Below are positions 11,941 to 60,814 of a DNA stretch of 64,000 nt, one piece after another. The translations under genes were made by a program, and so were the position numbers. Below the pieces are notes generated by a model. It saw only the letters and a program-made list of their open reading frames with translations, was not told the origin of the DNA and searched no databases. The stretch is from Macrolepiota albuminosa. Lineage: Eukaryota; Basidiomycota; Agaricomycetes; Agaricales; Agaricaceae. Positions within the stretch are counted from its first letter, which is position 1; each line of letters starts with the position of its first letter. The stretch covers positions 1,302,001 to 1,366,000 of the forward strand of contig JAMWFC010000009.1 in assembly GCA_027475525.1 (NCBI GenBank), in the 5' to 3' direction.

Positions 11941-11982
11941 CCCTCAAACATTCATTATCCAGATCAGTCCTTTCTCATCCAC

Positions 11983-18591: not shown

Positions 18592-18596
18592 GTGAG
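18592..18596. repeat. Right target-site duplication GTGAG of element C
   Basis: Matches 6921-6925 and proves that element C inserted as a unit into element B. Confidence 0.85.
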
Positions 18597-19135
18597 TTTG
18601 TCTGTTGGTGAAGGTAACAGGCATACACATGAAATGAGTGATATCTCTGGCCATAGAGGCATCTCCATCGAAGAGGCAAAGTTGGACAGGGATCAGAAGT
18701 TGTTGGGCAGGCTCCAAGGCAGAGGAGAACTAGGCCTTGTTGATGAAATTATCTGTGGCACCGCTGTTGATGAGGGTGTTGAGGGGGTCTCTGGAGGGGA
18801 TGATGCGGGTTTTCAGGAGAAGAGAGTGTGAGGAGTGGGAGGGTAGGTAAGCCATGAGGGTGTCCTGTATGAGTGTTGTTGAGCATAGGTGAGAGACCAG
18901 GGCAGAGAAGACGTTGGGGTCAATTCCACGATTTAGTACATCTTCCGGGTCTAAATTGCCAGGTCATTTTCCGAGCACTCATAGGTGGTGTCTTCTCTCT
19001 CAAAAGTCCAGGTGGCACATCCCATGGTCTGTCGTTGGGGGCACTCAGAGATGAAGTGGTCTTTCTCACTGCAGAGTATACAGGCACTCTCCCTTCTCCA
19101 TCGATTCTGCACATCTTTCAGGACCTGTCAGGGGA
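18597..19135 (-). pseudogene. Element B: gag zinc knuckle and first retropepsin domain (decayed)
   Basis: Continuation of B to the right of element C. Minus strand: a knuckle matching E's CILCGEKDHFISEC at about 19090-19040, then the start of the first protease with LINSGATDNFIN (Asn replaces the catalytic Asp) near 18770. It aligns with 43520-44100 of E. It ends at a family-L LTR that replaces about 0.7 kb of gag sequence. Confidence 0.75.
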
Positions 19136-19644
19136 CTTCTCATTTCTTCCTTTTCTCACTCCTTATCTCTTCACTCTCCCTTCATTCATTCTCTTACTTC
19201 TTCTAACATTATTTTATTTTACTGTTTCTATCCTTTCAACACTATCTGTTAGTACTACTCTCAGCCCTTGAGATGCTCTGGTTCTTTAGCTACCATTCAG
19301 ACAAGTGTGGGCCCTTCAGCACTGCTTCTAGACTGCTTATATAAGCCAGAGTTTGCCTTTCTGACTTCTAAAGTCCGGAGTTTTCCTGCCTTGTTTGCAC
19401 AGTTGTTTGGTTAGTCAATTTTCGAGTTTTTAAGGTTTTGTTGTACTGTAAAGTTGTTTCCTGCACTTCAGAAGCCCCAGAAGTGCCCAACCTGGCATAG
19501 AAAATCCCTAGACTTATTCTCTTTGAATCTCCTTCTGCCAGGTGAGTAGGTATTATGATATTGTCAGTATATACTCTAATACACTTTGGATCTCCCTCTG
19601 CCAGCTGTGTGACTGAGCCACAGTCTCTAGAGGTTGCCCTTACA
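19136..19644 (+). repeat. Family L LTR-like repeat, copy 1 (509 bp)
   Basis: Starts TGTCAGGGGACT and ends CTTACA, with TATATAA near 19338, so it looks like a solo LTR on the + strand. Two more copies lie at 22723-23393 (minus) and 24352-24910 (+). No target duplication is seen here, and flanking B sequence corresponding to E 42800-43510 is missing, so a deletion accompanied or followed insertion. Confidence 0.65.
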
Positions 19645-21442
19645 GTACGAGGCAGCAAAGGCCACCCTGGAGCTGTCAGCCTGGAATGTGAGTGGAATGT
19701 ATGCCATTTGTGGAGGTCCCAGCTCATAAACATGTCAGATTTCTGAATATCCAGGCATCCTTTGTAGGCAAGGGCATCACGGGTGTTGTCCGGTTCTGCT
19801 GCATTATGGTGAGGGGGTCCTGTATTGTAGTAGTAATAATAGTGGTTACCCTGGGAAGGAAAGGCACCAAGAGCGGGGCCCCACCTTCCTGGAGGGCCTC
19901 TTCTAGGTGGCTCACCTGGGGGTCCATGGCCTGGAGGCCCATTGTCCCAAGGAGGTTCGTTCCTGTTGGATGGAGGTCTGGGTCTCCATGCAGGAGGCAG
20001 CAGAGGTGGCGGGCTGAGAAGTTGTTTTCAGTGGTCAACTGGGGGTGGCAGAGACAGTCAGAGAGGGTTCGGTGGTGCTGGGTCAATTTGTGGTGAGCCA
20101 GGTGCTGGGTCAGGTGCTGGGTTGTGCAGGGGGTGTTCAACTTGGGAGGGTCAAGCTTGCATCAGGGGCTGTGGGGGATTCTGCAGATTGAAGTGGGGTG
20201 GGAAGTTGCGATGGAAGTTGGGCTCAGGAGGGGCTGGGGCAGATGTGGGTAGTAGTGCCAGGGTTGTTGCAGGCACAGGACATCGTTCATTGTCGCCTCA
20301 AGTGAGCTTGTCAATGTAGCACAGCATGTCGTCTGTACTAGGGGTGCCAGCTCAGGGTCTCCTGGAGGTCACTGGGGGTGGGAGTTGGGTGTTGTCCAGT
20401 CGTGGAAGCAGTTCCAGGGGTCTCTGGGGGTGTCCCCAGGTCTTGAAGGTGCTAGGAATGGAGTTAGCCCTATGGTGAGTTGACAAGCCTACTATGTGGG
20501 CAGCAGGCTGATTGAATAGCCCACCTGTTGGGTTGAGGGACCGCAGTATGGCTGAGGTGTTCTGCCATTCTTCCCGTTGTTGTTGCTCCAGGGTCAGGAC
20601 TGCAGGGGCTGCCAGGGCCAGTTCTGGAGGTTTCTGTTGGATGTGAATCAAGTGACCGGGGTCTGTGGGGTTGTTGAGGGGTTGAGGAGAGGGGCACGCA
20701 TGGACTTTGTCAAGCAGTTGCTGCAGCTCTTTGTGGAGGATCGTGTTGTGCCTGCACTTTATCATAGCCTGTTCCAGAAGTTCTCTCTATGTGAATCAAT
20801 CCCCAAATTTGACCAAGCAATGGGCCCAGTCCTCTGGAGTGCCTTTGAAGTCATCATGTTCAAATTCCATGAGTAACACCCTTGTCCACTGCACGAAGTT
20901 CTCCAGTAAAATCCTGAGCAAGCAGAGCACCTCGTTCCATTAACATTCGTACTCCACAAAGTGTCGCTGTTCCATTGGTGACAGAGGGGTTCATGCAGGT
21001 GGGGTGGCAGCTGGGTAGTGTTGAGGAAGGTAGTTGTAGTTGGGAGGTCCATGGGGTTGGGGAACAGGGCATTGGTAACCGTAGTAGAGGGTGGGGGCAA
21101 AGGGACCCTCACTGGGGGGAATCAGACGAGGTCCACTGAGGATGGGTGGGGTCTCCAGTAGACTCCCAGGGATGCTCCGGTATGAGGGGGCCTCCATGGG
21201 TCGGGCCATAGCTAGGTTGGGTGGAGGGGCCCAGCTGGCTGAGGGCCCCAGGTCATAGAGGGACGGATCAGGGGCCCAGTGGCAGTGGAGGCGCTGGGGT
21301 TTGTATGGGAAAGGTGGGTAGACAGGGTGGGGGGTCTGTGCAGAGTAGTGGTTGGGAACCAGATGTCTGTAAGAGTCGGTCTGGTAGCCCATGGGGTAAT
21401 AGGTGTGAGTGTATATAGCCATCAAAAACAGTGTAAGGAGAG
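19645..21442 (-). pseudogene. Element B: gag (decayed)
   Basis: Minus-strand homologue of E's gag. It begins at about 21425 with a Tyr/Pro-rich segment (YTHTYYPMGYQTD) and continues with NTILHKELQQLLDKV, LEQQQREEWQNTSAILRSL and a Pro-rich region with a run of Tyr or Thr codons (19850-19820), then DIQKSD. Many frame changes and stops. It is interrupted at 19644/19645 by the family-L LTR. Element B is clearly older than E and G. Confidence 0.8.
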
Positions 21443-21455
21443 AGTCTTGATATTA
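21443..21455 (-). other. Element B self-complementary primer-binding site
   Basis: Minus strand reads TAATATCAAGACT immediately after the LTR's terminal CA. The complement AGTCTTGATATTA occurs inside B's LTR (21832-21820 on the minus strand), about 33 bp after a TATTTAAAA box. Same layout as element E. Confidence 0.75.
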
Positions 21456-22264
21456 TGTCAGGTTCCACTGAGTCAGGGGCTTTCTAGAAAAGCAATGCCC
21501 TTACAAGGTGGACTTGATCTACATGTACTTGGGTGTCAGGAACTCTGGACTGGGCTCTGGGGTTCAAGATGTGAACAGGGGGATTCTCAGGGTAAGGGAC
21601 TTAGTCCAGAGATCAGGTGAAGTTGAAAAGAATTAAGGGTTTGAGTCAAGTTGAGAACCAGAGGTTCTAGGATGAGACCCGGTTAGTAAAGTTTAAGTCT
21701 CAAAGTGCATACCAATCTCAAGAGCACGCAAACAAATTGAGCATGCCAGTTGAAGCGTGCCAGCCAAGTGTGCCAGTCAGTGCACACCAGTCAAGCAAAG
21801 GGCATACAAACAATCAATGTAATATCAAGACTAGAGTACGACAAGTGGGTAGCTACTTTTAAATACTGGTGGTGGTCTCTGGGTTCCTGAGGGGTTCTGG
21901 GATATCTGAGGCGGTTCCAGGAGTTAATGGGCAGTAGAAGGAGAGGAAACTGTATATCGGAAATCATGCATGCAGGGCACATGATTAATTGGCATGGAAG
22001 GGTGTCCTGATGCATGATGTGTGATGGCCAGGGTAGTTGACATGATCCAGTAATCGGCCCGTGCTGGTGGATAGTTCCAGGGTTTGTGCGGCAGGGCTGT
22101 CAGGGAGTGCAGCATGATGGCGGGGCTTGATGTGCAGCTTGATGTGTGTGATGGTGGTGGGGGCAGTTCTGATGGCAGGAGTCATGTTGTGGGGTTGGCA
22201 GAGGAGCCCTGGATAGAGCTCTGAGGGTGTCCTGGGGTGGTTCTGGATAGGAGGGGTCATGACA
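21456..22264 (-). repeat. Element B 5' LTR (809 bp)
   Basis: On the minus strand it starts TGTCATGACCCC at 22264 and ends GGAACCTGACA at 21456, the same ends as the LTRs of E and G, with diverged interior. Right edge of element B. Confidence 0.85.
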
Positions 22265-34021: not shown

Positions 34022-36684
34022 ATGAATCATTTATTCTTACACAATGACATGCATACATTTGCCTTGTCGGCTTTCTCTCATAACGTTTTGTATGACGCTG
34101 TTGCTGCCCATGGTTTATCAAAACAGTCAAATGTCGATGATACTAAAAATTTATTGATTCATCATTTATTGAATGGTTTATGTGCTGTGTCTGCCAGTGT
34201 TGAATGTACATCTCTTGCACACTCAATTGAACCATGTAAATTAAAGCAGGATTTATTTCAAGCAATTTTGGACCATGCATCGAAGGATAGTACCCCTATT
34301 GATGAAATTTGAATGTTGTGTAAGGCATCAGGCTTTGACCGTCTCCCTCATAGTTGGAATTTGCTTTTAAATTTATTGTTAAAAGTTCAATATAATACCG
34401 ATGATGTTTCCCTTCCATTTTTGACACTGTCACACCAAATTTCTCATTATGATGCCCTTCGGATTGCTGCTGCACACAGAATTTCCTCAACTGGTAGTAG
34501 TCAGTCGATTTTGATATCTGTCATTGAACATACAGTCCAAGGACATTGTGTTTATTCACAATGAAATAGTGCTTGCATTGCTATGTGCAACAGAGCTTCT
34601 CCTGGTTCTTCTGCCATTGTTCCTGACACTATTCAATCATATATTATTTGTGAATTTGGCCATTGTTTGTCATTACAATCAGCACATTGTCTACTGTCCT
34701 GTGCTTAAAGTACCTTTTGAATATAATGATTCTCTAGTTTCCTTACGATATCGTATTCAAGAACATCATGTCCTTACACAAATACAACGACTGTCTGTTG
34801 TGATCCCTTCACCAGACTCGCTTGCATTGCAGAATTGTTTGCACAAGACAAAAGAGGAATGGCCCCGGTTTGATCTCGCAATCCCAAAAATAATATCTGT
34901 CTAAATTGTTCAGAGAAGCAACTTCAAGTGATGCACTTTGACGCTTAACCTGTGCCTCTTGTGCTCAATTATCCCCTGTTAATGAAACTGCGGTGATTCC
35001 TTATAAATCATTGGATTTGCACCCACTTTGTTATCCTGGTTGCCATTCATCTATTCCAATTGGCATTCAACCAAAGACTTCCAAGGTTCCATTATCTGAG
35101 TTGAGTGATATTGACGGAAATGAAATACTTGATGATTCTGATTCATTGGGATTGGCCATTGACACTCCTGTTATCTCCAATTTTAGAAGTCGCTATGCAT
35201 TAATGACACCTACAATGAGAAAACAAATTGAAAATCTTCTTCTTGATCTGGATGGCATACTTGAATCCACAGATAATAATCTGTGCTTACGGTTATGTAC
35301 CACATGTTCAAAATCTCTAGCCAAATCTCGGATGCCCAAGTTTGCCCTTGCAAATAAATTATATTATGGTCAAATACCTGAAGTTCTTAAGAATTTGACC
35401 CACATTGAGGAGACCATCATTAGTTTGAATTGTGCAAAGGCATGGATCATTCAACTTCAGGAGAATGATCCACATTGCAGTGTTCTCACAAAGCAAACTG
35501 CCATCCGTGGTCACACTATAGTATTTCCACAGGATCCTGGGGTTGTTGCAATGACTTTGCCCCCATCAATTGAAGACATAATAACACCTATATGTGTTAT
35601 ATTCATTGGCCATCGAAAACCCTCTACAGAATGGTTGAAAAAATATGCATCACCATTGATTGTTTGAGGTGAAAGAATCCGTGCTGCTTTTAAGTGGTTG
35701 AAAGCCAACAACCCATTGTATGAATTTGTACGAATTGATGAAGATTGAATTCAGAATTTGAACCAGACAGATTTTTTACCATTTCATGTCGAACATGTTA
35801 ATCTTTCTGTGTCTCAAGAGTTTCTTCAATCTTGTTATGCCAACATAGACAATGATTGTGATCTGTCTATCAATGTGTCCTCCGATATTCCTTTTGAAAA
35901 CATTGTTGTCCCAATGTCGATTGTAACGCATCGAGTAATGAACTTTGTGCTGCAGCTGTGCATCACTTTACTCAAAGTTGTGGAGGATACCTACTTTATC
36001 CACATTGTTCTGATCCCATCAAAGATATCTGTAATCTGTTGCTTTTTCCAATGCTCAACCTTGTTTCTCTTTGGAATAGGTGGCTTGGAAGATTGCAAGC
36101 GAAAAATCACAATTTCTCTCAAAGCTCATGTTCAGTATTTGCTACAACTTGGGGATCCCCGCTTCCATGAACATCATTTGTTTATATTTATTGTGTTCAA
36201 TATATTGCAACAATGTGCGGTTTTGCTTCATACTAGTTTGAAAGTTAGAAAAAGGGATTTTGCAGCAGTTGCTTCACAATTTGCATCAGTTTCACCGGAA
36301 ACTGTGCACCGAGTTTCAGCAAGGGTTGCCAAGGGTAATTCTATTACAGCACATGATACAGAAGAAAAACGGGTTTTGTCATTAATGAAACAAGTGAATA
36401 CTATCACAAGCCATATTCCAAATTCATCTAGTGCACGACAATCAATGAGAACTGAAATACGGAGCCTAATAATGCATCTTGGAATGCCAAGTTTCTTTAT
36501 TACAATAAATCCTGCAGATGTCTACAATCCAATAGTAAAGTTTCTTGCAGGTTCTGAGATTGATGTTGATGCTTTGCTACCTGAAGAGATTCCCAAATTT
36601 CGTGAACAGAGTCTGTTAGTTGCCCGTGATCCTGCCAATGCTGCACAATTTTTTTATGTGTATATGAAGGCATTTGTTGATTGA
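34022..36684 (+). pseudogene. Helitron Rep/helicase protein, N-terminal region
   Basis: Pieces in order: 34022-34561 with a stop at 34310-34312; 34524-34904; 34993-35667 with CTTCSKSL, KLYYGQIPEVLKNLT and AIRGHTIVFPQDPG, which match the cysteine and IP-L-L-T blocks of the Helitron-associated DUF6570 region; 35758-36684 with SARQSMRTEI and GMPSFFITINPADVYNP, the Helitron_like_N core. Stops and frame changes between pieces show decay. The protein would nick and transfer a single strand for rolling-circle transposition. Confidence 0.8.
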
Positions 36685-40024: not shown

Positions 40025-40274
40025 TGTCACGACCCCTTCCCTCCGGATCCACCCCGGGACACCCCCGGAACAACCCCCGGGACCCTCCCTCTGATCCCGC
40101 AGGACACGCCCCGCCATCACGACCACTGACACCGCCATCACGCGCATCAAGGACCGCCATCAGCCGCCGCCAGCCCCGATCAACGATTGGATCACACGAC
40201 CCATTCCCGGCTATCACGCATCACGCATCACAGCTCCCTCCGTGCCAATTGATCGCGCGCCCCACACGTGCGAT

Positions 40275-40428
40275 CCCGGTATACAGTCCCTGCCGCTACT
40301 CAATGACCCCCGGAGCCCATCCCAGACACCCCGGAACCCCGAGACCCGGTCCCCGGTATACAGTCCCTGCCGCTACTCAATGACCCCCGGAGCCCATCCC
40401 AGACACCCCGGAACCCCGAGACCCGGTC
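40275..40428. repeat. 77-bp perfect tandem duplication no. 14
   Basis: Copies 40275-40351 and 40352-40428 in the 5' LTR. The 3' LTR of the same element has one copy (from about 50645), so the second copy is not part of the family. Confidence 0.95.
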
Positions 40429-40436
40429 CCATAGTA

Positions 40437-40479
40437 CTTATAGCATAGTTCCCTGTTGTATTCGCTAGTCTTGATATTA
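40437..40479 (+). promoter_or_regulatory. Element E LTR promoter and predicted RNA 5' end
   Basis: TATA-like CTTATAGC followed about 30 bp later by AGTCTTGATATTA, which is perfectly complementary to the primer-binding site at 40854-40866. The same pair occurs in the 3' LTR (50730 and 50760) and in the LTRs of B and G. Confidence 0.6.
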
Positions 40480-40853
40480 CATACACTGTTACTTTGCATT
40501 ACTTGGATTGTTGCGTGCCCTCTATTTGACTGGTACGCATTGACTGGCACGCTTGACTGGCACGCTTGGATATTTGTGTGCTCTAAGACTGGTATGCACT
40601 TCGTGACTTTAACTTACTAACTTGGTCTCGTCTTAGAACCTCCAGTTCACGACTCGACCCCCACCCGAACTCCCCCGTTACCCACCACCCAAAACCTCTG
40701 GACTAAGTCCCCTCTCCCGGGATTTCCCTGTCCACGTCTTGAACCCTGGAGTCCTAGCCCCGGAGTTCCAGACACCCGAGTATCCGTGGGTCAAGTCCGC
40801 ATTGTAAGGGCGATTGCTTTCCCAGAAAGCCCCCAACTCAGCGGAACCTGACA

Positions 40854-40866
40854 TAATATCAAGACT
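40854..40866 (+). other. Element E primer-binding site, complementary to its own LTR
   Basis: TAATATCAAGACT starts directly after the LTR. All 13 bases pair with 40467-40479 of the LTR. In Tf1/sushi elements the 5' end of the RNA folds back on such a site and is cut to serve as the primer. No tRNA-like TGG start is seen. Confidence 0.75.
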
Positions 40867-46780: not shown

Positions 46781-48272
46781 TACTGATCTTAAACAACGAA
46801 GGAACCCTGAGCCAGATCCGCTGCGCCCCCCGGGACAAGTACTTCACCGACCACAACCCCCGCAACCTCCCCGACAGGACCGACCAGGACCCCGCCTTCT
46901 CCCTGTCCCCCAACGAAAAACTCCTCCTCCGGGACGGCCGCATCTACGTCCCGAATCACACCTGACTCCGCTACGACGTCCTCCATCAACACCACGACCA
47001 CAAGCTCTGGGGACACCCTGGAATACGTAAGACTCTCCAGCTGATCTCCCAGACTTACTTTTGGCCAGGGTTGAAGAAGGACGTGACCCGCTACATTCGA
47101 TCATGTGAACCCTGCCTCCGGGCCAAGGTCCCCCGACACCGACCATACGGACTCCTGAAACCCCTGCCAGTCGGACAACGCCCCTGGTCCTCCATATCCC
47201 TGGACCACATCGTCGAACTCCCAGAATCTGAAGGGTTCGATGCCATTCTCGTCGTTGTGTGCAGGCTAACCAAACAGGGCATCTTCCTACCCTGCCACAC
47301 CATGGACACCGCCCCGGACTTTGCCCGGCTATTCCTCGAGCACGTCTTTGCCAAACATGGACTCCCGGACGACATTGTCTCCGACCGTGGCCCCCTCTTC
47401 GTGTCCAAGTTTTGGACTTCCCTGTGTAAGGCACTTGAAGTAAAGACTAACCTCTCTACCGCCTACCACCCCAAAACCGATGGCCAAACCGAAAGGGTCA
47501 ACCAGTCTCTTGAGCAGTACCTTCAACTGTACGTCAACTACTTGCAGGACGACTGGCGCGCCGAGCTTCCCCTGGCTGAGTTCACTTACAACAACACGCC
47601 GCACTCCGCCACCAGGGTATCGCCCTTTTTTGCCAACAAGGGATACCACCCTCGACTGACACTCTTGCTCGGGACATCCCGTCACACGCTGCCCACGAGG
47701 TCGCCCGGGATCTCCAGTCCCTTCACGAGTTTCTCCGAGAAGAGATCGACACTGCAAACCAGGCCTATGCGAAACACACCGACCAAAAACAGGAAAACAC
47801 CCCCAACTGGACCCCCGGGACAAAGGTATGGTTAGATCGACGCCACCTCCGCACCCGCCGGCCCTCCCCAAAACTCGATCACAAGCGCCTCGGCCCGTTC
47901 AAAATATTGAAGAAGGTCTCATCCCACGCCTACAAGATTGAGCTTCCCCCGGGACTAAAAGGTCTGCACCCAGTATTCCACGTCCGCCTACTGGAATGGC
48001 ACCCCCCGGATCCCTTCCCCAAACAACGCCCCGAACCCCCTCCCCCAGTCGAGGTCGAGGACGAGTACCACTACGAGGTTGAAGACATTCTCGACTCCCG
48101 GAACATTTGTGGACGACCCCACTTCCTCGTACGATGGAAGGGATACAGCCTGGAAGACGACACCTGGGAACCGCGTCGAAACCTCGAAGGCGCCCTCGAC
48201 AAACTCCGGGACTTTCAACAACAGCACCCGGGAAACAATCTTCCGGGGCGCAGGACTCACAGACGGCAGTAG
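46781..48272 (+). pseudogene. Element E: integrase with chromodomain
   Basis: HHCC zinc-binding region (HHDHKLWGHPGIRKT ... CEPCLRA), core with SLDHIVELPES (Asp), IVSDRGPLF (Asp) and [11 protein letters not shown] (Glu), GPF-like module, and a chromodomain ([21 protein letters not shown] ends in [13 protein letters not shown]). TGA 46963-46965 replaces CGA of element G, and a one-base deletion near 47668 shifts the frame. Stop at 48270-48272. The chromodomain places the element among the chromoviruses. Confidence 0.9.
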
Positions 48273-48569: not shown

Positions 48570-50257
48570 CTAACGCTGGGGCCCCGGACCGTGACTCCCC
48601 TCGCCCTCCCTTCCCCTCGGCCACCCCCGGAAATCCTCCCCCACCCCCTCTGGACCATGCTCCCGCCACACTTCCTCGGCCAGGAGCTCCCAAGACGGGA
48701 GGGGCTCACCCTCGTCCAACACTCGCTCAAACCAGGACCCCGGGGCAGGTATGTTCCTCCGCCGGTGGGCGACCACTAATCGCCCCAGGAGGTCAAGCCC
48801 GTGCTCCACCCCGGGGGTTGTCACCTCCGGGCGCTGCCCCTCCTGTAGCGAGGCCAGTGCTGCGGCAACCCCATCCAGGAGCAGACGATGCTCCCGGGCC
48901 CAGCCTGGAGACGTTAGCAGACGAAGTGATCCGGCGACAGAGGACTTACTGAGAGATGCCATGTGCGTGACCACCACGTCACGGCGCAGAGCCTCCATCA
49001 CCTCCTGTCCCGAGGGGGCCCTCTCTGAGATCCCCACTCCCTGCTCCAACCTCACCCACAACGCCTCCAGCTCCGCCTCCGCCTCCCCCCGAGCGGTTCG
49101 GGCCTCCTCCAGCTGTCAACGCGCCTCCCAACCCGCCTCCAACTCCCTCCGCACGTCGGCCTCCTTGGACTCCCCTGGGCGCTCCAGCAGGACCCCCACG
49201 TCCGCCCCCAGGGGCCACCCCGACAGAGGCGAAAACACCGCCGGGGAGAGGCGTGGCAGGGAAACCGGGGGCGGGGTCTCGGAGGGCAGACGCGCCCTCT
49301 TTGACGGCCCTGGGGAAGGGCTTGGTGACGCCTGCCGCTTCCCCTTGTCAGGGCGCCCCCCGCACCCCTCCCGGCTCCCCCCGGCCCGGGTCACTCGGCA
49401 CGTGATGAGGACCACGGGCCGGCCCCGGCCCCCCACCTGAATGGCACCCCCACTCCCTGACCCCCCTGGACCCGCCGCGGCCACCTCCCCCACCGGCTCC
49501 GCGACCCCCATCCTCCAGGTGACCCTCCCAGCGGCCACCCCTGCTCCCGGGAGACGCAGCGCGCCCTCCACAGCGCCGACATGGAACATCGCTCGTGGTT
49601 GAGGCGGCATGCCTCACACACGGACGTGTCCCGGCGGGACGAGGGGCCTGGGACCTCGAACAGGCAGGGGACCGTTTGTCGAGCGCAGTGAAGACACTGC
49701 GTCAAAGTTAGCGACGAGACCCGAGGTAAGGAAGCACTCACTGGTCTGTTATTCACGCACCAGACGTGGGTGGGTAGACCCCGGGGCCTCTCCAGGGCCT
49801 CCCCAAATAACTCCTGCGTCGCGTCCACCCACGCAACGCGCTGACACTCCAGAACTTCGGATACGGCCCCCACCGCCATCCCGGAACGACGGAAACGAGG
49901 GGCAGGTAGCCTGGGGCGGGGAGGGGGTTGAGGGCGGGGAGGGTGGACAGTCATCCGCGCAAAGATAGGCGCAGGACGACTTGGGCAGGCCTCTGGAACA
50001 ACACTGGAACCTGCATCGGGAGCAGGCTCCAGGTGCCGGCTGGGACCCGCGACAGGATTGCTAAGTTGTTCTGAAATAGGAAGATCAGTAGGATAGGCGG
50101 ACGATGCGGGAAGACACTCGCATTGCTGAGCAAGCTCCGCCACGCGCTCCCGGTTGAGGCGAGCTTGGTATCGCGCATCCCGGGCTTCCCAAGCCATGAG
50201 GGGCGCGACCTCGTTAGTTTGTGGGGGCATCGGGGAATGCGTCGGGGTACGCGACAT
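48570..50257 (-). pseudogene. Element E: antisense zinc-cluster protein gene
   Basis: Minus strand, opposite to gag-pol, between pol and the 3' LTR. Start MSRTPTHSP at 50257; exon 1 to about 50122, exon 2 50070-49742, exon 3 49696-48950, exon 4 48904-48570. Intron 3 (48949-48905) is GTAAGT..CTAAC..CAG; intron 2 is 45 bp with GTGAGT; intron 1 has a GC donor and is 51 bp, so introns 1 and 2 can also be read through. Product: zinc cluster C-x2-C-x6-C-x15-C-x2-C-x6-C (CLHCARQTVPC ... CEACRLNHERC), a basic segment (PSKRARLPS), a Glu/Arg/Leu coiled coil and a conserved tail (WAREHRLLLDG ... PGSWFERVLDEG). A frame change near 49560 and a stop near 49117 damage this copy. Homologous, with the same introns, to 57929-59683. 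Confidence 0.75.
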
Positions 50258-50368
50258 GGTTGAGTCTGATGGTAAAATTTTTTCGATACGTAGCAAGTCA
50301 GGTGCCGGATCCCACGATTGGACCCCGGTCCAAACCCCCAGCTACGCGCGCCTTGGAGGGTCTCGGCG

Positions 50369-50383
50369 CTGAAGGGGGGGTGA
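50369..50383 (+). other. Element E polypurine tract
   Basis: GCTGAAGGGGGGGTGA just before the 3' LTR; identical layout in element G (minus strand, 57800-57815). Confidence 0.7.
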
Positions 50384-51145
50384 TGTCATGACCCCTCCCC
50401 TCCGGATCCACCCCGGATCCACCCCGGGACACCCCCGGAACAACCCCCAGGACCCTCCCTCCGACCCCGCAGGACACGCCCCGCCATCACGACCACCGAC
50501 ACCGCCATCACACGCATCAAGGACCGCCATCAGCCGCCGCCAGCCCCGATCAACGATTGGATCACGCGACCCATTCCCGGCTATCACGCATCACGCATCA
50601 CAGCTCCCTCCATGCCAATTGATTGCACGCCCCACACGCGCGATCCCGGTATACAGTCCCTGCCGCTACTCAATGACCCCCGGAGCCCATCCCAGACACC
50701 CCGGAACCCCGAGACCCGGTCCCGTAGTACTTATAGCATAGTTCCCTGTTGTATTCGCTAGTCTTGATATTACATACACTGTTACTTTGCATTACTTGGA
50801 TTGTTGCGTGCCCTCTATTTGACTGGTACACATTGACTGGCACGCTTGACTGGCACGCTTGGATATTCGCGTGCTCTAAGACTGGTATGCACTTCGCGAC
50901 TTTAACTTACTAACTTGGTCTCGTCTTAGAACCTCCGGTTCACGACTCGACCCCCACCCGAACTCCCCAGTTACCACCACCCAAAACCCCCGGACTAAGT
51001 CCCCTCTCCCAGGATTTCCCTGTCCATGTCTTGAACCCCGGAGTCCTAGCCCCGGAGTTCCAGACACCCGAGTATCCGTGAGTCAAGTCCGCATTGTAAA
51101 GGCGATTGCTTTCCCAGAAAGCCCCCGACTCAGCGGAACCTGACA
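50384..51145 (+). repeat. Element E 3' LTR (762 bp)
   Basis: TGTCATGACCCC to GGAACCTGACA. Differs from the 5' LTR by scattered substitutions and a short repeat of CCGGATCCACC near its start. Confidence 0.9.
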
Positions 51146-51150
51146 CAGGG
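51146..51150. repeat. Right target-site duplication CAGGG of element E
   Basis: Matches 40020-40024; removing E and one copy rejoins LINE ORF2. Confidence 0.9.
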
Positions 51151-53792
51151 AAGTTGTTGCACACCCAGCGCACGAAGAGGTGAAGAGGTTGTCAAACAAA
51201 CTAAACTCACAGATTCGCACAGCCCAAGAGGAACACTGGACTCAATGGCTCGAAAACATCAATGCGAGGCAGATCTACCTGGCCAATAAGTATGTAGTGA
51301 AGGAGCCCTCAGACTTCGCATGTGATAGGGTCCCCGCCCTCCGCCAGGACCAAGGCAATGGTAATGGGCTGGCCACAACCAACGGCAAAAAGGCAGAGGT
51401 ACTAGCTAAGTCCTTTTTCCCTCCCCACCCTCTACACCTCGTTACTCCAGCCACTGCATATCCAGAGCCCCTGCCAGCCCCACCCCCGTTTTCACATGGC
51501 CAGATCAAAAAGACCATGAATCGCCTCCCACCTTTTAAAGCGCCGGGCCCAGATGGTATACCCAACATCGTCTTCAAATGCTGCATAGATATTCTGCTGG
51601 ATCACCTATATTTTATCTTTCTAGCCGCATACCAACTCGGGTTCTACCATGACAGCTGGCTGATCTTGACCACCCTTGTCCTCTGCAAACCAGGGAAGCC
51701 AGCCTATGATGTCGTCAAGGCATACCGCCCGATTGGCCTGCTAAACACGCTGGGCAAAATCCTGTCCACTCTAATAGCAGCTGACCTTTCATATGTCGCA
51801 GAGACACACGGCCTACTCCCGCAAGGACAGTTTGGTGGCCACCCAGGTAGGAACACTAATGATGCCATGCACCTGATCACCCAGAAGATCAAGGATGCCT
51901 GGCAAACAGGTAAAGTGGCCTCTGCATTGTTCCTCAACATCCAGGGGGCATTCCCTAACACGGTCAGAGAACACCTTATCCACAACATGCGCTGCCACCG
52001 AGTACCAACGCCTTTCATCAACTTGGCTCGCAATATGCTCACAAACCGCAGAACACGGCTGGCCTTTGACAACTATGTATCCAACTACTTTGACATCACT
52101 AATGGCACCACACAGGGATGCCCTCTCTCAATGATCTACTATGCTTTCTACAACGCCCCCCTGGTTGAGACAGCCTCAGCGAACAGCAAATCAGAAACCT
52201 TGGCTGGTTTTGTAGACAACGTAATGTTCCTGGCCATTGCAGACAACCTCGACGAGTCGCAAGACATCATCCGTGACATGATGGAGAGGCCAGATAGCAG
52301 CTTTGACTGGTCAGTCTCCCACAACTCTCCGTTCGAGCTGAAAAAACTAGCCCTAATGAATTTCTCTCGCTCCCACCATGACCTGGCCCCAAGAAGCAAC
52401 CTCTGCCTCACCAGCACGTACACAGACAGCCCCCCCTCCTCTCTGACGGTCAATGCCATGCCAAACCACAAGTACCTAGGTGTAGTCTTCGACACGACTC
52501 TCCACTGGACGGCACACACACAGAAGGTCACAGCCAGCGCCGTGTGGTGGACCCACCAAATATCTCGGCTCTTCCAAGTCTCCGGAGGAATGCCTCCTGG
52601 TCAAGTCTGCCAGCTCTATAATACTGTGGCAGTACCGGCCTTCACATACGCAGCTGATGTATGGTACACGGGTATTGGCAAATCAGCGTCAGGTAAGAAC
52701 AGATCAGGATCTGTTGCGGTGACTAAGAAGCTCTGCCCAGCCCAGAAATGGGCAGCAAAACTGATTACAGGTGCGCTTAGCACCACAGCTGGCAACACCC
52801 TCGATGCCCATGCCTTCCTTCTCCCTGTGGATCTCCTATTCCGCAAGGTCCTCACCAGAGCAGCGGTGCATCTAGCATCGCTACCTCCTACTCATCCCCT
52901 CTACAGACCAGTACGCTGTGCAGCCAACCGTTATGTATGCCAACACCAATCTCCGCTGCACCACCTCTTTTATTTCACTGGAGTGACTCCAGATTCCATT
53001 GAGACCGTCCAGGTAACCAGGCATGCCCCCAGCTATGTACCCTCACTGTCTTCCTCTATCCCAGGCTCCAAGGAACAGGCACTAATGGCCATTGAACAGC
53101 TTCACGCCTCAGCAAAGTACGCAGTGTATTGCGACGGTTCGGGCTTTGAGGGAGGAATTGGAGCAGTGGCGGTCCTCTACATCGACAACGAGGCGACAGA
53201 CTCACTCAAGCTTCATCTTGGCCCTGAGTCGAAGCACACGGTATACAAAGTGGAAGCCGTTGGATTCATCCTTGGCCTCCACCTCCTCCATAGCATCGAT
53301 CGGCGCCTCACAGGCCCCGTAATTGTTAGCAGCAACAGCCAAGCTGCCATAAGAGCGACCTCCAACCAGAGACCACACCCTGGGCACTACCTCCTCGACG
53401 AGGTACATACCGCCACTGAGAAGCTCCATAAGACCCAAGACCATATTGTGATGCGAGGCCAAGGCCCATCGAGGAAGCGGAAGGTGCGTACGTGTGGCGT
53501 AATTAATCTCCAGATACACTGGTCTCCAGGACATGAAAGCTTCACACCGAATGAACGTGCTGACAAACTTGCCAAGGAAGCGGCAAAAGGATCGGCCAAT
53601 GCGTCAGCCAGGCTCCCCGCATGCCTTCAACTCTCCCTCCCCAACAGCATATCTGCAACACGCCAGATAGCCTTTAGACAAACAATCAACTCCTGGAGGT
53701 TACGATGGAAGACCTCCCCCCAATACAAACCCACGCAAAGGATTGACAGATTGCTCCTTTATTGCTTCTTTCGAGAGAATATCTGCACCTGA
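51151..53792 (+). CDS. LINE ORF2, RT-RNase H part (open, but three catalytic Asp replaced by Asn)
   Basis: About 870 codons without a stop. RT: PFKAPGPDGIPN, YRPIGLLNTLGKI, LFLNIQGAFPN (normally LFLDIQGAFPN), TQGCPLSMIYY and GFVDNVMFLA (normally VDD), then the thumb (YLGVVFDTTLHW). RNase H: YCDGSGFEGGIG (Asp), YKVEAVGFILGL (Glu), VSSNSQAAIRA (normally SDSQAAI) and HWSPGHESFTPNERAD (His, Asp). The codons at 51936-51938, 52218-52220 and 53334-53336 are AAC; GAC is expected. The enzyme should be inactive although the frame is intact. The C-terminal end shifts frame near 53750. Confidence 0.92.
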
Positions 53793-54091
53793 TAGCTGGC
53801 TTAAGCCATTGCCACTCGGCCATACTGACTCAACTACGTACAGGACACTCCCCCCTCAACCAGCATCTGTTCCGCATACGCAAGGCAGAATCACCCTGTT
53901 GCTCCTACTGTGGCAACCTAACTGTCGAAACCATCGCCCACTATCTACTGATCTGCCCCAAATTCATGAGGGAACGCTTCCTGCACCTCACATGTCCGCT
54001 CAAAAGAAAAGCTGAGTCTCTTCCCCACCTGTTGACCCACCCCGAGGCCTCAGTTCATCGACACAACGAAACGATTCAGCCGCGACACTGA
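53762..54091 (+). pseudogene. LINE ORF2 C-terminal CCHC segment (out of frame)
   Basis: LTQLRTGHSPLNQHL followed by CCSYCGNLTVETIAHYLLICPKF, a CX2CX8HX4C knuckle typical of the C-terminus of Tad/I-clade ORF2. It lies in a different frame from the RT part, so one indel near 53750 separates them. Confidence 0.85.
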
Positions 54092-54494
54092 GAGCGGCAT
54101 GCAGACCACACCAGACAATCACACCACATAACTATCATACCCTTACTCTCATTATTCTCTAATTACAGCACCAGTCATTCCCCCACCATTTAGCTACCTC
54201 CATATTAGTCTGGTTGGGCTGAGACTCAGCTGCTCATCTCCAACCGCCCCTCTGGGCACTTGCAGATCCATATCTCCGCCGGAGCCTTCGCATAGGTTCC
54301 CTGTTCCTCAGGTTGTACAAGGAGTGTGGCCAAAAATGGCATTTGGAAGCGCCAGCTCACTCTTTCTCCATGTAGCGGGGGGGCATAGATTCCTGCAGCT
54401 CCTGTAGTTGTATGTACCTGTTGGTAGTAACGTGTACAATAGGTGCGATGCACTTCAGGCACGATAATGGAATTAAAAAAAAAAAAAAAAAAAT
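54092..54494 (+). other. LINE 3' untranslated region and poly(A) tail
   Basis: Non-coding stretch ending in 19 A residues (54475-54493) next to the 9-bp target duplication. Confidence 0.8.
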
Positions 54495-54503
54495 AGCAAT
54501 GGA
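54495..54503. repeat. Right 9-bp target duplication of the LINE
   Basis: AGCAATGGA, matching 37023-37031. Confidence 0.85.
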
Positions 54504-56351
54504 CTTGCACAACATTGTACAAACTTGTCAGATCCACAAATATGGACCAACTTGTTACAAATATAACAAGTCTTCAGATGATCAACAATGTAGATTCAAT
54601 TTGAATGTCAATAATATAAATCCTACTACTTTTTTTGATTCAGACACTGGTGAGATTCACCTACGATGTCTTGACGGTATGGTAAATAATTATAATAAAA
54701 CAATAATCAAAGTCATGCGTTGCAATATGGATATTAAATTCATAGGTTCAGGTTCTTCTGCAAAGGCAATTTTGTATTATATAACAGATTATATTACTAA
54801 ATCTCAATTGAAAGTACACATTGCCTTTGCAGCATTAGAACATGCAATGAATAGAATAGAACATTTTGACTCAAATGCAGAAGATATTCAACTCAGAGCA
54901 AAAAAGATGTTGCAAAAATGTGCCCATGCAATGATATCTCATCAAGAATTGTCTTCTCAACAGGTTAGTAGTACACTTCTCGGTTTTGAAGAAAAGTTGT
55001 CAAGCCACAAATACCAACGTTTATATTGGATACCATTTGAAAAATATTTCAACTCAATGCGACCAAGCCCTGAATGTTATATAACAGAGGGTTCATGTAG
55101 TGCAAAAACTTTTGGAGCCCAACCAATGTTGGGAACCTGCCTCACATCAGTGTGATGTGGACAGTGCAAGTCAGGAGCTACTCAATTCTCAAATAGATGA
55201 GGACATTGATGAGTCAACTATTGTACATGACAATGAAGTCTGTTTAGAACCTGATGAGCAGCTGATTGTTTGTGTAAAAACCAATCTCATTGATGACTAT
55301 AGAATGAGGAGCCAGGGTTTGACATCTATCTGCTTGTGGGATTTTGTTGCACAAATCGACAAAACTCATGCTTATGGCAAACATGAAAATGTTGTTAACC
55401 AGAATCAACCTGAAATTGAAATGAATGTACTTAATGGTGCGGACACATCTATTGAGTCTGAAAATCTGCTATTTGACATGTCCAGATTCCGAATGAATTT
55501 TTTCTTGATGTCAACTCATGCCGATGTTCAGACACACTATCATGTTATTTGTCATCCACACTGGTGCTTTGTCGTTGTACCTATTGGCCCTAATATCCCT
55601 CGCCATAATAAAGACACTTCTCAACCAAAATTCCATTGATTGATGCTAATTTTGTTTGTACCATGGAGATCTGTTAATGATGTGATACAAGACACAGAAT
55701 CATGGTCTGAAGCCTTCAATCACTATTTATCAAGTGGATGTCTGTCAGACAGAAAAATTTTGATCATAAATAATATGCAACTGTTACACAAATGTAAAGA
55801 CAGCCGTGACAATCATCGGACAACTCACCATGAGCGCATTCCTCAATATATTTCATCTAATTTGTCAAATGAGATTGAAAATGGTAAAGAAATGTATGAC
55901 AATAATAATGAAGAAAGTGAAGATTTATTGTTGCACCTTGAAACATTACAAAATTCTAGGTCATACTGATGCTGCTGCTGAAGATGTTTTTTCCTGTCTA
56001 TCCAATGCTGAAAAAGGGGGTTTGTTCCGTGAAGTAAATATTATTAATTCCAACACAAAAACATCCGTTTTAGTTCAACAAGTTGGTAAGAAATATGTTG
56101 ATAAACCATCATTACTTGAAAGTTTATGGCATTCAGAATTTGATCGTTGGCAGGAAGATGCTAGAAAAAATGCACAAATTGTTCAACCTTCCATAATTGA
56201 TCAAAGATATCATTCAGATAATATGGTTAACATCGCTCAATATGAAAATGCTCCGACTGGAAGACCAACACTATTACCACACATTGATAGAGATTTTTCT
56301 ATTATACAACAAAGCGGAAATATGAATCTATCAGCTGTTATTTCACGATAG
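54499..56351 (+). pseudogene. Helitron Rep Tyr motif and Rep-helicase linker
   Basis: Continues the Rep frame as MDLHNIVQTCQIHKYGPTCYKY, with the nicking motif YYITDYITKSQ (two Tyr) at about 54776-54808. A frame change near 55100-55145 and a stop at 55637-55639 follow; further conserved pieces are CLWDFVAQIDK and LFVPWRSVNDV (compare F-KPWRS in other Helitrons). Decayed. Confidence 0.8.
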
Positions 56352-57067
56352 AATCTCAACTACGAACAAGAAATGGCATTCTGAATCATTACAAATCATT
56401 CAATAGAACTGATTCATCAAGCATGGTCTCCGTTAAGAATGTTTCTAAATGGAGCAGCAGGTACAGGTAAAACTCGAGTCATCCATGCAGTCAAAGATTT
56501 TTTCCAAAGTAGAAATGAAACTTGCTGTTTTCATATATGTTTGTATATGGGAATCGCTGCTCGGAACGTTGCTAGTATGACTCTACATTCAGCACTGTGC
56601 CTTGGTGAACTAATGAAAATATGGGAGGGGGTAAACTTTCTGTTCATTGATGAAGTTTCCATGTTAAGTTGTTGTTTTCTATGTGTCATTAGCAGGGCAC
56701 TTTGCATGGCAAAAGGCAATGCTTGCCCATTTGAGAACATCAATATCATTTTTGCTGGTGATTTCACCCAATTACCACCTGTAGTTGAAAAACGTTTATA
56801 TAGTCATATTGATACTAATAAGTATGGTAAAACAGTTGCTGGTCAGGACATTATGTTTGGCAAAATCCTATGGTTATCAATAAAAATTGTTGTCATATTG
56901 CAACAACAACATAGATAGTCAGGTTTTGAGAATGAACGTTTTGTTGACTTTTTGTCTTGTCTACAAGAGGGTTGATGCAACAAAAGCAATATTGAATTTC
57001 TAAATACCTGGTTACTCAAACATATTGACATTAAACAAGACCAATCTTGGTTGTCCACACCAATAAT
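56352..57067 (+). pseudogene. Helitron PIF1-like helicase domain (3' truncated by element G)
   Basis: YEQEMAF then a TGA, then MFLNGAAGTGKTRVIHAV (Walker A), IAARNVASMTLHSAL, NFLFIDEVSML (Walker B), and IIFAGDFTQLPPVV. Stops at 56916-56918 and 56972 or so. The frame reaches LSTPII at 57067, where element G's LTR begins, so helicase motifs after this point are missing. It unwinds DNA during rolling-circle transposition. Confidence 0.88.
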
Positions 57068-57799
57068 TTGTCAGGTTCCGCTGAGTCGGGGGCTTTCCGG
57101 GAAAGCAATCGCCCTTACAATGCGGACTTGACCCACGGATACTCGGGTGTCTGGAACTCCGGGGCTAGGACTCCGGGGTTCAAGACATGGACAGGGAAAT
57201 CCCGGGAGAGGGGACTTAGTCCAGGGGTTTTGGGTGGTGGTAACTGGGGAGTTTGGGTGGGGTCGAGTCGTGAACCGGAGGTTCTAAGACGAGACCAAGT
57301 TAGTAAGTTAAAGTCGCGAAGTGCGTACCAGTCTTAGAGCACGCGATTATCCAAGCGTGCCAGTCAAGCGTGCCAGTCAATGCGTACCAGTCAAATAGAG
57401 GGCACGCAACAATCCAAGTAAAGCAAAGTAACAGTGTATGTAATATCAAGACTACCGAATACAACAGGGAGCTACACTATAAGTACTACGGGACCGGGTC
57501 TCGGGATTCCGGGGTGTCTGGGATGGGTTCTGGGAGTCATTGAGTAGTGGGCAGGGACTGTATACCGGGATCACACGTGTGGAGCGCGCGATCAATTGAT
57601 GTGGGGGGAGTCGTGATGCGTGAGTCGCGTGATCTGATCGTTGATCAGGGCTGGTGGCGGCTGATGGCGGTCCTTGATGTGCATGATGGCGGTGTCGGCG
57701 GTCGTGATGGCGGGGCGTGTCCTGTGGGGTCAGAGGGAGGGTCCCGGGGGTTGTTCTGGGGGTGTCCCGGGGTGGATCCGGAGGGGAGGGGTCATGACA
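57068..57799 (-). repeat. Element G 3' LTR (732 bp)
   Basis: TGTCAGGTTCC at the left and GGGGTCATGACA at the right of the + strand, matching E's LTR ends. TAATATCAAGACT at 57441-57453 lies about 30 bp from the TATA-like word at 57478-57484 (minus strand CTTATAG). Confidence 0.9.
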
Positions 57800-57815
57800 T
57801 CACCCCCCCTTCAGC
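57800..57815 (-). other. Element G polypurine tract
   Basis: Minus strand CGCTGAAGGGGGGGTGA enters the LTR, as in E. Confidence 0.7.
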
Positions 57816-57928
57816 GCCGAGACCCTCCGAGGCGCGCGTAGCCAGGGGTTTGGACTGGGGTCTAATCGTGGGATCCGGCACCTGACTTGCCACGTATCGA
57901 AAAAAAAATTTTACCATCAAACTCAACC

Positions 57929-59683
57929 ATGTCGCGTACGCCGACGCATTCTCCGACGCCCCCACAAACTAATGAGGTCGCGCCTCTCATGGCTTGGGAA
58001 GCCCAGGACGCCCGATACCGGCGCCGCCTAGATCGGGAGCGCATAGCGGCGCTCGCCCAACAGCGTAAGTGTCCCTGTGCCGGTCGCTTACCGCTACTGA
58101 CCTTCCTCTTTCAGAACAACACAACATTTCTGCCCCGGAGGCGGGTCCTAGTCGGCTCCCGGCACCTGCCCCCGGTGCGGCCCCTGGCGGCTCCTAGCAG
58201 CTCCTTGGGGCCAGGTCTCAGTCGTCCTGCGCCCAACTTTGCGCGAATGACCGTGCGCCCCCCCGTCCCCCACCCCCTCCTCGCCCTAGACTGGCCACCC
58301 CTCAGTTCCGTCGCTCCGGGATGGCGGTGGGGGCCATCTCTGAGGTCCCAGACACCCATCGTGTCGCGTGGGCCAGTGCCACGCAGAAGGCCTTCGAAGG
58401 GGCGCTGGTGAGGCCCCGGGGCTTGCCTCCCCATGCCTGGTGTATCAGTAACGGGCCGGTAAGTAGCTCTGTACCTTGAGTTTCGAGGCTGACCTGGGTG
58501 TCTAGTGCCTCCACTGTGCGCGCCGCTCAGTGCTGTGCTTGTTTGAGGTCCCGTCCCCATCGTCCCGACGCGACACTGCAGTGTGCAAGGCGTGCCGCGA
58601 CAATCATGAGCGGTGCTCCGTTTCGGCTCTTTGGAGGGCGTATTGTATGTCGCAGGAGCAGGGTTGGCCATTGGTGGGGATCACCCGGAGGATGGGTGTG
58701 GAGGAGAGGGATTGGGTCGTGGAGACGGCGGGGGTTCAAGGAGAGGCGCTAACGGAGGCCTCTGGAGGCGAGGCTGAGGGAGGGGGGGTCGTCCGGGCGG
58801 GCGGCTGGGGCCGGCCCGTGGTTTTGATCACGCGTCGGGTGACCCGGTCCGGCGCCCTGGGGCGGGAGGGGCGCGGCGGGCGCCCTGATAAGGGCAAACG
58901 GTGGGCGTCGCCTAACCCCTCCCCGGGACCTTCCAAGAGGGCGCGTTTGCCCTCCAGGACCCCTTCCCCGGTTTTCCCCCCGCGTCTGTCCCCAGCCGCT
59001 TTCTCGCCTCTGTCGGGGCGGCCCCTGGGGGCGGATGTGAGGGCTCTTCAGGAGCGCCCGGGGGAGTCTGAGGAGGGTGGGGAGGGAACCATCGCACGAG
59101 GGGAGGGAACCGTCGCACGAGGGGAGCTGGAGGCGGGTCGAGAGGCGCTGCGACAGTTGGAGGAGGCCCGGGTCGCTAGGGGGGAGGTGGAGGCGGAGCT
59201 GGAGGCGTTGAGGGCGCGGTTTGGGCAGGGGGTGGAGGTTCCAGAGAGGGCCCCCTCGGGACAGGAGTTGACGGAGGGCCTGCGCCGCGACGTGGTGATC
59301 GCGCGTATGGCATCCCTGAGTAGGTTCCCTGTCGCTTGCATATTCATTTGCTAACGTCTCCAGGCTGGGCCCGGGAGCACCGTCTGCTCCTGGACGGGGT
59401 TGCCACGGCGCTTGCCGCGCTGCAGGAGGGGCAGCACGCGGAGATGACGACCCCCGGGGTGGAGCGTGGCCTCGACCTCCTGGGACGGTTGGTGGTCACC
59501 CACCGGCGGAGGAACGTGCCCGCCCCGGGCTCCTGGTTTGAGCGTGTATTGGACGAGGGTGAACCCCTTCCGACTTGGGAGGTGTTGGCCGAGGAGGTGT
59601 GGCGGGATCACGGTCTGGAGGGGTTAGGAGAGGGCTTCCGGGGCTGGCCGTGGGGAGGAGGTAGTGAGGGGGGCTCCGGTTAG
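57929..59683 (+). pseudogene. Element G: antisense zinc-cluster protein gene (four exons)
   Basis: Opposite strand to G's pol. Exons 57929-58064, 58115-58458, 58506-59319 and 59364-59683. Introns of 50, 47 and 44 bp have GTAAGT, GTAAGT and GTAGGT donors and CAG/TAG acceptors; intron 3 has a CTAAC branch site as in E. Product: MSRTPTHSPTPPQTNEV start, zinc cluster CLHCARRSVLC ... CKACRDNHERC (both C-x2-C-x6-C, 15-residue spacer), basic PSKRARLPS, a coiled coil (LEAGREALRQLEEARVARG) and tail PGSWFERVLDEGEPLP. A TAG near 58195 with compensating frame changes to about 58265 damages exon 2. The DNA-binding-like zinc cluster and possible nuclear signal suggest a regulator; this is inference. Confidence 0.75.
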
Positions 59684-59955: not shown

Positions 59956-60288
59956 CTACTGCCGTCTGTGAGTCCTGCACCCGGGGGGGTCGTCTCCTGG
60001 GTGCCGTTGCTGGAAGTCCCGGAGTTTGTCGAGGGCGCCTTTGAGGTTTCGTCGCGGTTCTCAAGTGTCGTCCTCTGGGCTGTATCCCTTCCATCGTATG
60101 AGGAAGTGGGGTCGTCCCCGAATGTTCCGGGAGTCGAGGATGTCTTCGACTTCGTAGTGATATTCGTCCTCAACCTCGACCGGGGGAGGGGGTTCGGGCC
60201 GTCGTTCGGGAAAGGGATCTGGGGGATGTCGTTCCAGGAGGCGGACGTGGAATACCGGGTGTAGGCCTTTGAGTCCCAGGGGGAGCTC

Positions 60289-60442
60289 GATCTTGTAGGC
60301 GTGGGATGAGACCTTCTTCAAGATCTTGAATGGGCCGAGGCGCTTGTGATCGAGTTTTGGGGAGGGATCTTGTAGGCGTGGGATGAGACCTTCTTCAAGA
60401 TCTTGAATGGGCCGAGGCGCTTGTGATCGAGTTTTGGGGAGG
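60289..60442. repeat. 77-bp perfect tandem duplication no. 20
   Basis: Copies 60289-60365 and 60366-60442, over the segment coding [19 protein letters not shown]. Confidence 0.95.
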
Positions 60443-60814
60443 GCCAGCGGGTGCGGAGGTGGCATCGATCTAACCATACCTTTGTCCCGGGGGCCCAGTC
60501 GGGGGTGTCCTCCCGTTTCCGGTCGGCGTGTTTTGCATAGGCCTGGTTCGCGGTGTCGATCTCTTCCCGGAGAAACTTGTGAAGAGACTGGAGATCCCGG
60601 GCGACCTCGTGGACGGCGTGTGACGGGATGCCCCGGAGCGAGAGCGTCAGTCGAGGGTGGTATCCCTTGTTGGCAAAGAAGGGTGATACCCCGGTGGCAG
60701 AGTGTGGCGTGTTGTTGTAGGTGAACTCGGCCAGGGGGAGCTCGGCGCGCCAGTCGTCCTGCAAGTAGTTGATGTACAGCCGGAGGTACTGCTCGAGGGA
60801 CTGGTTGACCCTTT

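Follow-up and report, generated by a model that had tools for sequence, protein, structure and literature searches.

How does a gene with three introns persist inside a retrotransposon, and what might it do there? Both questions are raised by a 64,000-nucleotide (nt) stretch of the Macrolepiota albuminosa genome (contig JAMWFC010000009.1, positions 1,302,001 to 1,366,000; hereafter the window), which contains a long terminal repeat (LTR) retrotransposon, element E, plus the 3' part of an inverted relative, element G, which runs off the window. In both elements a four-exon gene lies antisense to gag-pol, between the chromodomain end of pol and the 3' LTR. An earlier note on this DNA had reported the same antisense gene in E and G, and end-to-end alignment bears this out. 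We find that the gene is a standing part of a chromodomain Ty3/Gypsy group (Tf1/sushi-like, self-priming): its antisense place is constant, its three introns have conserved positions and phases, it is under purifying selection, it occurs in recent insertions, and the same arrangement exists in Termitomyces. Its product is best read as a spliced, element-encoded candidate nuclear regulator with a zinc-cluster-like domain that would act at the element's own LTR, a reading to which we give about an even chance.

In G the gene occupies 57929..59683 on the plus strand (exons 57929-58064, 58115-58458, 58506-59319, and 59364-59683), and the six splice coordinates given previously are exact. Intron 1 (58065..58114, plus; 50 nt, phase 1) reads GTAAGT..CTGAC..CAG, intron 2 (58459..58505, plus; 47 nt, phase 0) reads GTAAGT..CTGAC..TAG, and intron 3 (59320..59363, plus; 44 nt, phase 1) reads GTAGGT..CTAAC..CAG. 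In E the gene lies at 48570..50257 on the minus strand (exons 50257-50122, 50070-49742, 49696-48950, and 48904-48570). Its intron 1 (50071..50121, minus; 51 nt) has a GC donor (GCGAGT) in place of GT, and introns 2 (49697..49741, minus; 45 nt) and 3 (48905..48949, minus; 45 nt) read GTGAGT..CTAAC..CAG and GTAAGT..CTAAC..CAG. The start, the cysteine spacing 2-6-15-2-6, a PSKRARLPS block, and the C-terminal block are common to the two copies, as had been described. Both copies are decayed: the spliced frame of G meets a stop at codon 73, and that of E meets one at codon 46 and shifts again downstream. Introns 1 and 2 of E are free of stops, so its frame reads through both unspliced as well. The earlier note had overlooked that both window copies are broken, that the family is large, and that the gene is a hyperdivergent recombining cassette.

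That note had proposed a search for the gene in other genomic copies of the element family, and E and G prove to be two of many. The host genome (100.1 Mb, 129 contigs) was searched with exon 3 of G, and the best 40 of 489 first-look candidates were scored; counts from this search are lower bounds. The gene was found at at least 40 places, including G, plus one extra piece. We aligned 41 rows, comprising 39 places other than G, E as the fortieth (L048), and G itself. The introns fall at the same places throughout, as had been claimed for E and G, with GT..AG borders in 36 rows at intron 1, 41 at intron 2, and 39 at intron 3, and at all three together in 34 of the 41. The exceptions at intron 3 are L044, whose sequence ends there, and L022, which has CAA. 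A branch-like CTRAY motif is present in the last 30 nt of introns 1, 2, and 3 in 41, 41, and 39 rows, respectively; the intron interiors vary widely between aligned copies. The earlier explanation, that the introns persist since they are antisense to the genomic RNA, is supported by the logic of the established retrotransposition cycle: they remain because reverse transcription copies the sense RNA only, in which they are never spliced.

After splicing, the frame is open for more than 500 codons in 16 of the 41 rows (L009, L013-L016, L025-L034, and L042). L025-L034 are ten copies, nine of them with one or two differences from L025; L009 has lost one cysteine and is decaying, and L042 has an altered end beside a 77-nt duplication. 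Five copies were added later (L069, L070, L071, L080, and L083); all are open except L080, which has an early stop. A second burst, L072-L078, shows 0, 0, 0, 1, 41, 0, and 0 differences from L071 over 1819 positions. L072 (G000:C114:602795-607093) appears, from its flanking sequence and extra gene matches, to have landed in a further copy of the antisense gene, within its intron 1. In older copies such as L045-L047, inspection of the translation by eye shows many changes of R to W, Q, C, or H, the kind that C-to-T decay of methylated CpG would produce.

The open-copy count may be an underestimate, because frames in some copies (such as L010, L017, L018, and L019) may be broken by 77-nt duplications that are probably an assembly artefact of a 77-base overlap. 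The window holds 23 exact tandem duplications of this length (for example at 611, 7210, 40275, 43787, 60289, and 62908), and no other tandem period from 40 to 120 occurs in it. Across loci L009-L088 (267,847 bases, some overlapping) there are 53 duplications of 77 nt, along with two each of 40 to 50. They shift frames in gag-pol and in some gene copies; none lies within the antisense genes of E or G.

The earlier note had also proposed measuring the ratio of nonsynonymous to synonymous substitution (dN/dS) across copies, with neutral evolution counting against a functional gene. By the Nei-Gojobori method dN/dS was 0.149-0.255 in all 21 pairs of seven distinct copies, a set in which pairs share sequences and so are not independent and which includes the decaying L009 and the end-altered L042; third codon positions were the most changed. 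By region, the ratio was lowest before the C-terminal domain (0.06), followed by the N-terminus and the stretch after the cysteine cluster (0.09 each); the cluster itself gave 0.15, the C-terminal domain 0.17, and the coiled coil 0.30, and the highest value, 0.54, fell in one linker. The data support an antisense gene that is selected, contains introns, and belongs to the element.

The place of the gene is constant. Of 40 loci compared, 39 had an LTR upstream of the gene and 37 had the pol end downstream of it; L048, one of the three without pol downstream, is counted so only because the compared stretch ends there. Elements were also sought through pol, scoring the best 40 of 615 candidates and taking the 20 best-ranked places other than those at gene copies already known. 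The gene was present in 20 of 20, with the C-terminal part only in L065 and a fragmentary copy in L066; nine of the remaining 20 scored pol places adjoin gene copies already in the set, and the other 11 lie outside the comparison. Two more distant element families, L082 and L084, whose reverse transcriptase (RT) is 75-81% identical to that of E, have a relative of the gene at the same place. The LTR pairs of L071-type elements differ at 1 of 795, 0 of 787, and 0 of 787 positions, L072 showing only 77 positions of extra LTR length, and the target repeats of four such elements match in three, with four of five letters matching in the fourth. These near-identical LTR pairs and target repeats indicate that the gene travels in recently moved elements.

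Relatives extend the pattern. The paralogue L081 (G000:C27:392800-398200) has about 35% protein identity and 656 open codons once three introns are removed; these lie at homologous places, as judged by eye, with phases 1, 0, and 1 as in the gene. In L082 introns are found at similar places and the frame is broken. L081 lies in a multi-kilobase repeat, with at least 40 places scored with the gene and a repeated stretch downstream. Within 3 kb downstream, L081-type repeats showed no similarity to the chromovirus pol pieces tried, and eight open reading frame (ORF) pieces from them had no Pfam match above the cut-off. Protein searches, with about 8000 candidates scored in each, gave 6, 5, and 13 relatives, all of them Termitomyces hypothetical proteins. 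Two of these, P0007 and P0010, match the antisense strand of chromovirus pol over their last 198 and 203 residues, in eight of eight sequences searched (seven loci and the window) at E-values below 1e-7. Since both run from the antisense gene into pol, the same arrangement exists in Termitomyces.

The elements themselves can be classified. E has RT, RNase H, H2C2 integrase, Tf2-1-like SH3, and chromodomain regions, with Pfam scores of 50.3 bits for Chromo and 67.1 bits for SH3_Tf2-1; the integrase C-terminal SH3 and the chromodomain lie in its pol end (47580..48270, plus). The pol end of G is at 60079..60761 (minus), where the antisense tails of the two Termitomyces proteins also match. The 5' LTR of E (40025..40853, plus) contains an exact 77-nt tandem duplication, probably artefactual; the 3' LTR (50384..51145, plus) differs from it by 27 mismatches in 751 aligned positions and by 89 gap columns, and a CAGGG 5-nt repeat flanks the element on both sides. 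The 3' LTR of G (57069..57799, minus) adjoins its antisense gene. Directly after the 5' LTR of E, 13 nt (40854..40866, plus) are the exact complement of LTR stretches starting at 40467 and 50760, which would mark the start of R and hence the likely start of sense transcription. Self-priming by such an LTR complement is the arrangement of the Tf1/sushi group. E and G are chromodomain Ty3/Gypsy elements of Tf1/sushi-like type, E having the chromodomain after the integrase, the SH3, and the self-priming site; the chromodomain, the Tf2-1-like SH3, and the 13-nt self-priming are shared with fungal Tf1/sushi and Tcn1-like elements.

Other mobile sequences share the window, and no third copy of the antisense gene was found in it besides those of E and G. 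A second Gypsy-type pol (H2C2 integrase, SH3) lies at 10756-13163 (minus), and 18592-21779 holds a truncated relative of E that has LTR and gag-side sequence. Directly after the 3' LTR of E is a frame with RT and RNase H like that of a long interspersed nuclear element (51144-53792), with an A run near 54476; it matches Pfam RVT_1, and its RNase H falls slightly below its cut-off. Two AT-rich stretches, 34942-36684 with DUF6570 and 54500-57060 with a P-loop helicase-like frame seen by eye, presumably resemble Helitron remains.

What might the protein do? It had been suggested to be possibly DNA-binding, which is plausible given its six-cysteine cluster and basic blocks, a long helix in the prediction, and a weak Zn_clus match; it is a candidate DNA-binding protein. 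In G the cluster, C-x2-C-x6-C-x15-C-x2-C-x6-C, opens exon 3 (58506..58616, plus; read by eye in the translation), and a basic block KGKR...PSKRARLP follows at 58890..58952 (plus), which by eye resembles a nuclear localization signal and whose region has a dN/dS of 0.12. Of the 16 open copies, 15 retain this cysteine spacing; L081 has it too, as do 7 of 18 Termitomyces proteins, several of those proteins being partial or decayed. Zn_clus was matched by five of seven members of the alignment at E-values up to 1 (best 0.0052). The long predicted helix is modeled at a predicted local distance difference test score (pLDDT) near 80.

A candidate target is at hand in the LTR. Three TGATGGCGG repeats, 21-22 nt apart, lie in the U3 of the 3' LTR of E (50481..50532, minus) and of G (57662..57713, plus), and the same array is found in the 5' LTR of E (40111..40162, minus). 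The array falls in the interval that separates the antisense start codon from the sense start; in G it is 224-267 nt upstream of the ATG. Matches in the window number 11, where 0.56 would be expected, and nine of the 11 fall within the three LTRs; a single LTR has three, as opposed to 0.01 in shuffles. Fungal Zn2Cys6 proteins typically bind paired CGG triplets as coiled-coil homodimers, as described in PMC5559640. The antisense protein shares with this Gal4-type family (PF00172) the 2-6 and 2-6 spacing, the basic residues, the long helix, and CGG-containing candidate sites. On the reading we prefer, transcription of the gene would be driven by a promoter lying either in the leader or in the U3 of the 3' LTR, and the transcript would be spliced in the nucleus. 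Its translation would yield a nuclear zinc-cluster-like protein, dimerizing through the long helix. That protein might further bind the CGG-containing U3 repeats and, so bound, set the output of both the sense promoter and its own gene.

Several observations weigh against this reading, and those on the protein concern its class. A profile search for Zn2Cys6, as the earlier note had proposed, gave scores below the PF00172 Zn_clus cut-off of 21 bits: 16.7 bits for member 1 of the alignment and 13 and 8.9 bits for window pieces. The Zn2Cys6 pattern is C-x2-C-x6-C-(5 to 12)-C-x2-C-(6 to 8)-C, from which the antisense protein departs solely by the length of its 15-residue middle loop. The coiled-coil-like helix also lies far downstream of the cysteine cluster, unlike that of Zn2Cys6 proteins. 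We take Lys18 of Gal4 to lie four residues after the second cysteine. Unlike in Gal4, which has Lys18 (PMC5559640), the residue at that place varies between copies. A PDB sequence search matched no solved structure, the structure model is poor as a whole (pLDDT 55.9), and Foldseek returned nothing with an E-value below 0.001. A confident known domain was thus sought by Pfam, PDB sequence search, structure prediction, and Foldseek, and all four came back without one. With the Pfam cut-off unreached, membership is not established, and we do not file the protein as Zn2Cys6.

The remaining adverse points concern the array. The motif was noticed before testing and so picked after the fact, and the LTRs compared are homologous. 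Of 53 sequences, among which E is counted twice and some LTRs are incomplete, only 28 have at least three exact TGATGGCGG units; the ten copies L025-L034 have one unit each, with the rest of the array degenerate, and no exact unit occurs in L020, L039, L041, L045, L046, L082, or L084. Nor does zinc-domain type track any U3 or leader stretch (32 distinct copies, eight scored upstream windows, r at most 0.32). The array is a candidate target, a lead rather than a result.

Comparison between elements showed an island of divergence at the gene. Seven elements (L083, L015, L016, L042, L069, L070, and L028) were compared with L073, pol windows being taken from 3301 on, and were 93-99% identical to it at the pol end and 59-91% in the gene; in the same seven, the LTR beside the gene was 79-99% and the leader window 89-96% identical. 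L080 is 95-97% identical to L073 in the first pol windows and unlike it afterwards, and L072, which has the gene type of L073, matches it fully in the gene windows. In L009, G, and E, which are more distant, identity was 84-96% in pol and 62-95% in the gene. At four-fold degenerate sites the differences were 0.21-0.54 in the gene and 0.02-0.26 in pol, where the comparisons rest on 120-394 codons; the gene exceeded pol in 21 of 21 pairs, the narrowest being L013-L009 (0.208 versus 0.182). Some copies are mosaics. L083 is 99-100% identical to L013 over three 200-nt windows, beyond which it is closer to L080, L025, and L071; E stays at 89-92% identity to L071 for the first 1000 nt of the gene and then departs; L018 is 95-97% identical to G over its last 750 nt and 70-80% before. 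Gene and pol distances nevertheless correlate across 45 loci, some of them near-identical (Mantel r 0.50 and 0.60, a level reached in 0 of 2000 permutations). Simple co-divergence of gene and pol is insufficient, as the gene is more diverged at four-fold sites despite this correlation. The simplest account is that recombination between co-packaged RNAs homogenizes the flanks while old gene types persist. The diversity of the cassette beside its alike flanks suggests either that elements gain from differing in their regulator or that template switching reassorts old types that have persisted.

The same divergence can be turned toward the host. A host-directed accessory protein might, for instance, oppose silencing of the element by DNA methylation, heterochromatin, or RNA interference, or it might change host transcription; the diversity of its cassette would then stem from a race with the host. 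We regard this as the strongest alternative, improbable as it is on balance. A hyperdivergent cassette with more alike flanks and a protein that looks nuclear by eye are in its favor, as are the CpG-decay-like changes in old copies, which indicate that the host probably silences the elements. However, dN/dS is low in most regions, giving no sign of an arms race at the amino acid level, and no anti-silencing domain was matched in Pfam scans of window pieces and seven members.

A bolder reading, which we consider quite unlikely, though worth stating, is that the cassette is immunity-like, each regulator type limiting elements of its own type, so that different or mosaic types arising by template switching escape and spread. 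If true, this would keep old types in elements otherwise far more homogeneous, like phage immunity regions. To our knowledge, no earlier heteroimmunity system of this sort is known in a retrotransposon.

Two further alternatives have a small chance each. Zn2Cys6-like genes are common in fungi, and the antisense gene might be a captured host zinc-cluster gene or passenger of no benefit to the element; the L081-type paralogue, without chromovirus pol within 3 kb downstream, fits this. The low dN/dS speaks against such a passenger, and so does the fact that the gene keeps its place in 39 of 40 loci and in 20 of 20 others, in the distant L082 and L084, and next to pol in Termitomyces. The product might instead be a particle, movement, or integration factor, env-like or capsid-linked, given that env-like ORFs usually lie after pol. 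Here, however, the gene is on the opposite strand, no long hydrophobic stretch is visible by eye in the translations, and the protein has basic blocks and a zinc-cluster-like domain.

Slimmer still is the chance that the antisense RNA itself matters rather than the protein, through double-stranded RNA or transcript interference. The layout means that such an RNA would pair with the genomic RNA, and antisense RNAs of human immunodeficiency virus and human T-cell leukemia virus (HTLV) also act as RNAs, according to PMC10186651. Against it stand the codon-level selection and the preservation of splice sites; moreover, no stretch is less conserved between elements than the gene, unlike what cross-copy pairing would need. 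That two related decayed elements merely look alike, with no gene at all, is refuted by the open copies and dN/dS despite the broken window copies and the many 77-nt duplications of the assembly, none of which falls inside either window gene, and we give it almost no credence.

If a regulator of its own LTR is what the gene encodes, it would work like the antisense ORFs of plant Retand elements and like HBZ of HTLV-1, yet be unrelated to both. The Retand TRP28 ORFs lie between pol and the 3' LTR, are thought to be regulatory, and occur in nearly all recently active elements, and the Grande protein is nuclear, as reported in PMC11963269. The fungal gene resembles these ORFs (TRP28, PF04195; including Grande and RIRE2) in its antisense orientation, its place, and its predicted DNA binding. 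Unlike it, they belong to flowering-plant non-chromoviruses and have an unrelated TRP28 domain, which was not listed for the fungal gene at E-values up to 10 in five window pieces or up to 1 in seven members. The strings "intron" and "fung" do not occur in the main text of that paper, which thus reports no introns there (PMC11963269). HBZ and other deltaretroviral antisense genes are expressed from the 3' LTR, are spliced, and regulate sense transcription (described in PMC1459196 and PMC10186651). The fungal gene is likewise antisense and lies between the sense-gene end and the 3' LTR. HBZ, however, is a bZIP protein whose gene has one intron of 1.4-1.5 kb starting in the LTR (PMC1459196), whereas in the fungal gene three short introns interrupt the coding region and the product is zinc-cluster-like, with no bZIP family listed in Pfam scans of the five window pieces and seven members. 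The main text of a survey of fungal LTR elements contains none of the terms antisense, zinc, additional ORF, opposite strand, or intron (PMC3248453). In the portions of the literature covered, including PMC6317226 and PMC5408684, we found no report of an intron-containing antisense gene in a fungal retrotransposon, though this does not prove that none has been printed.

Three introns kept through many rounds of reverse transcription are a clean natural demonstration that strand matters in retroelements. The gene is an unrelated addition to the antisense accessory genes of plants and deltaretroviruses, and it hints at a general use for a regulator made from the 3' LTR. Its island of divergence suggests a role in control or recognition; if each type does act on its own kind, retrotransposons would possess something akin to immunity groups.

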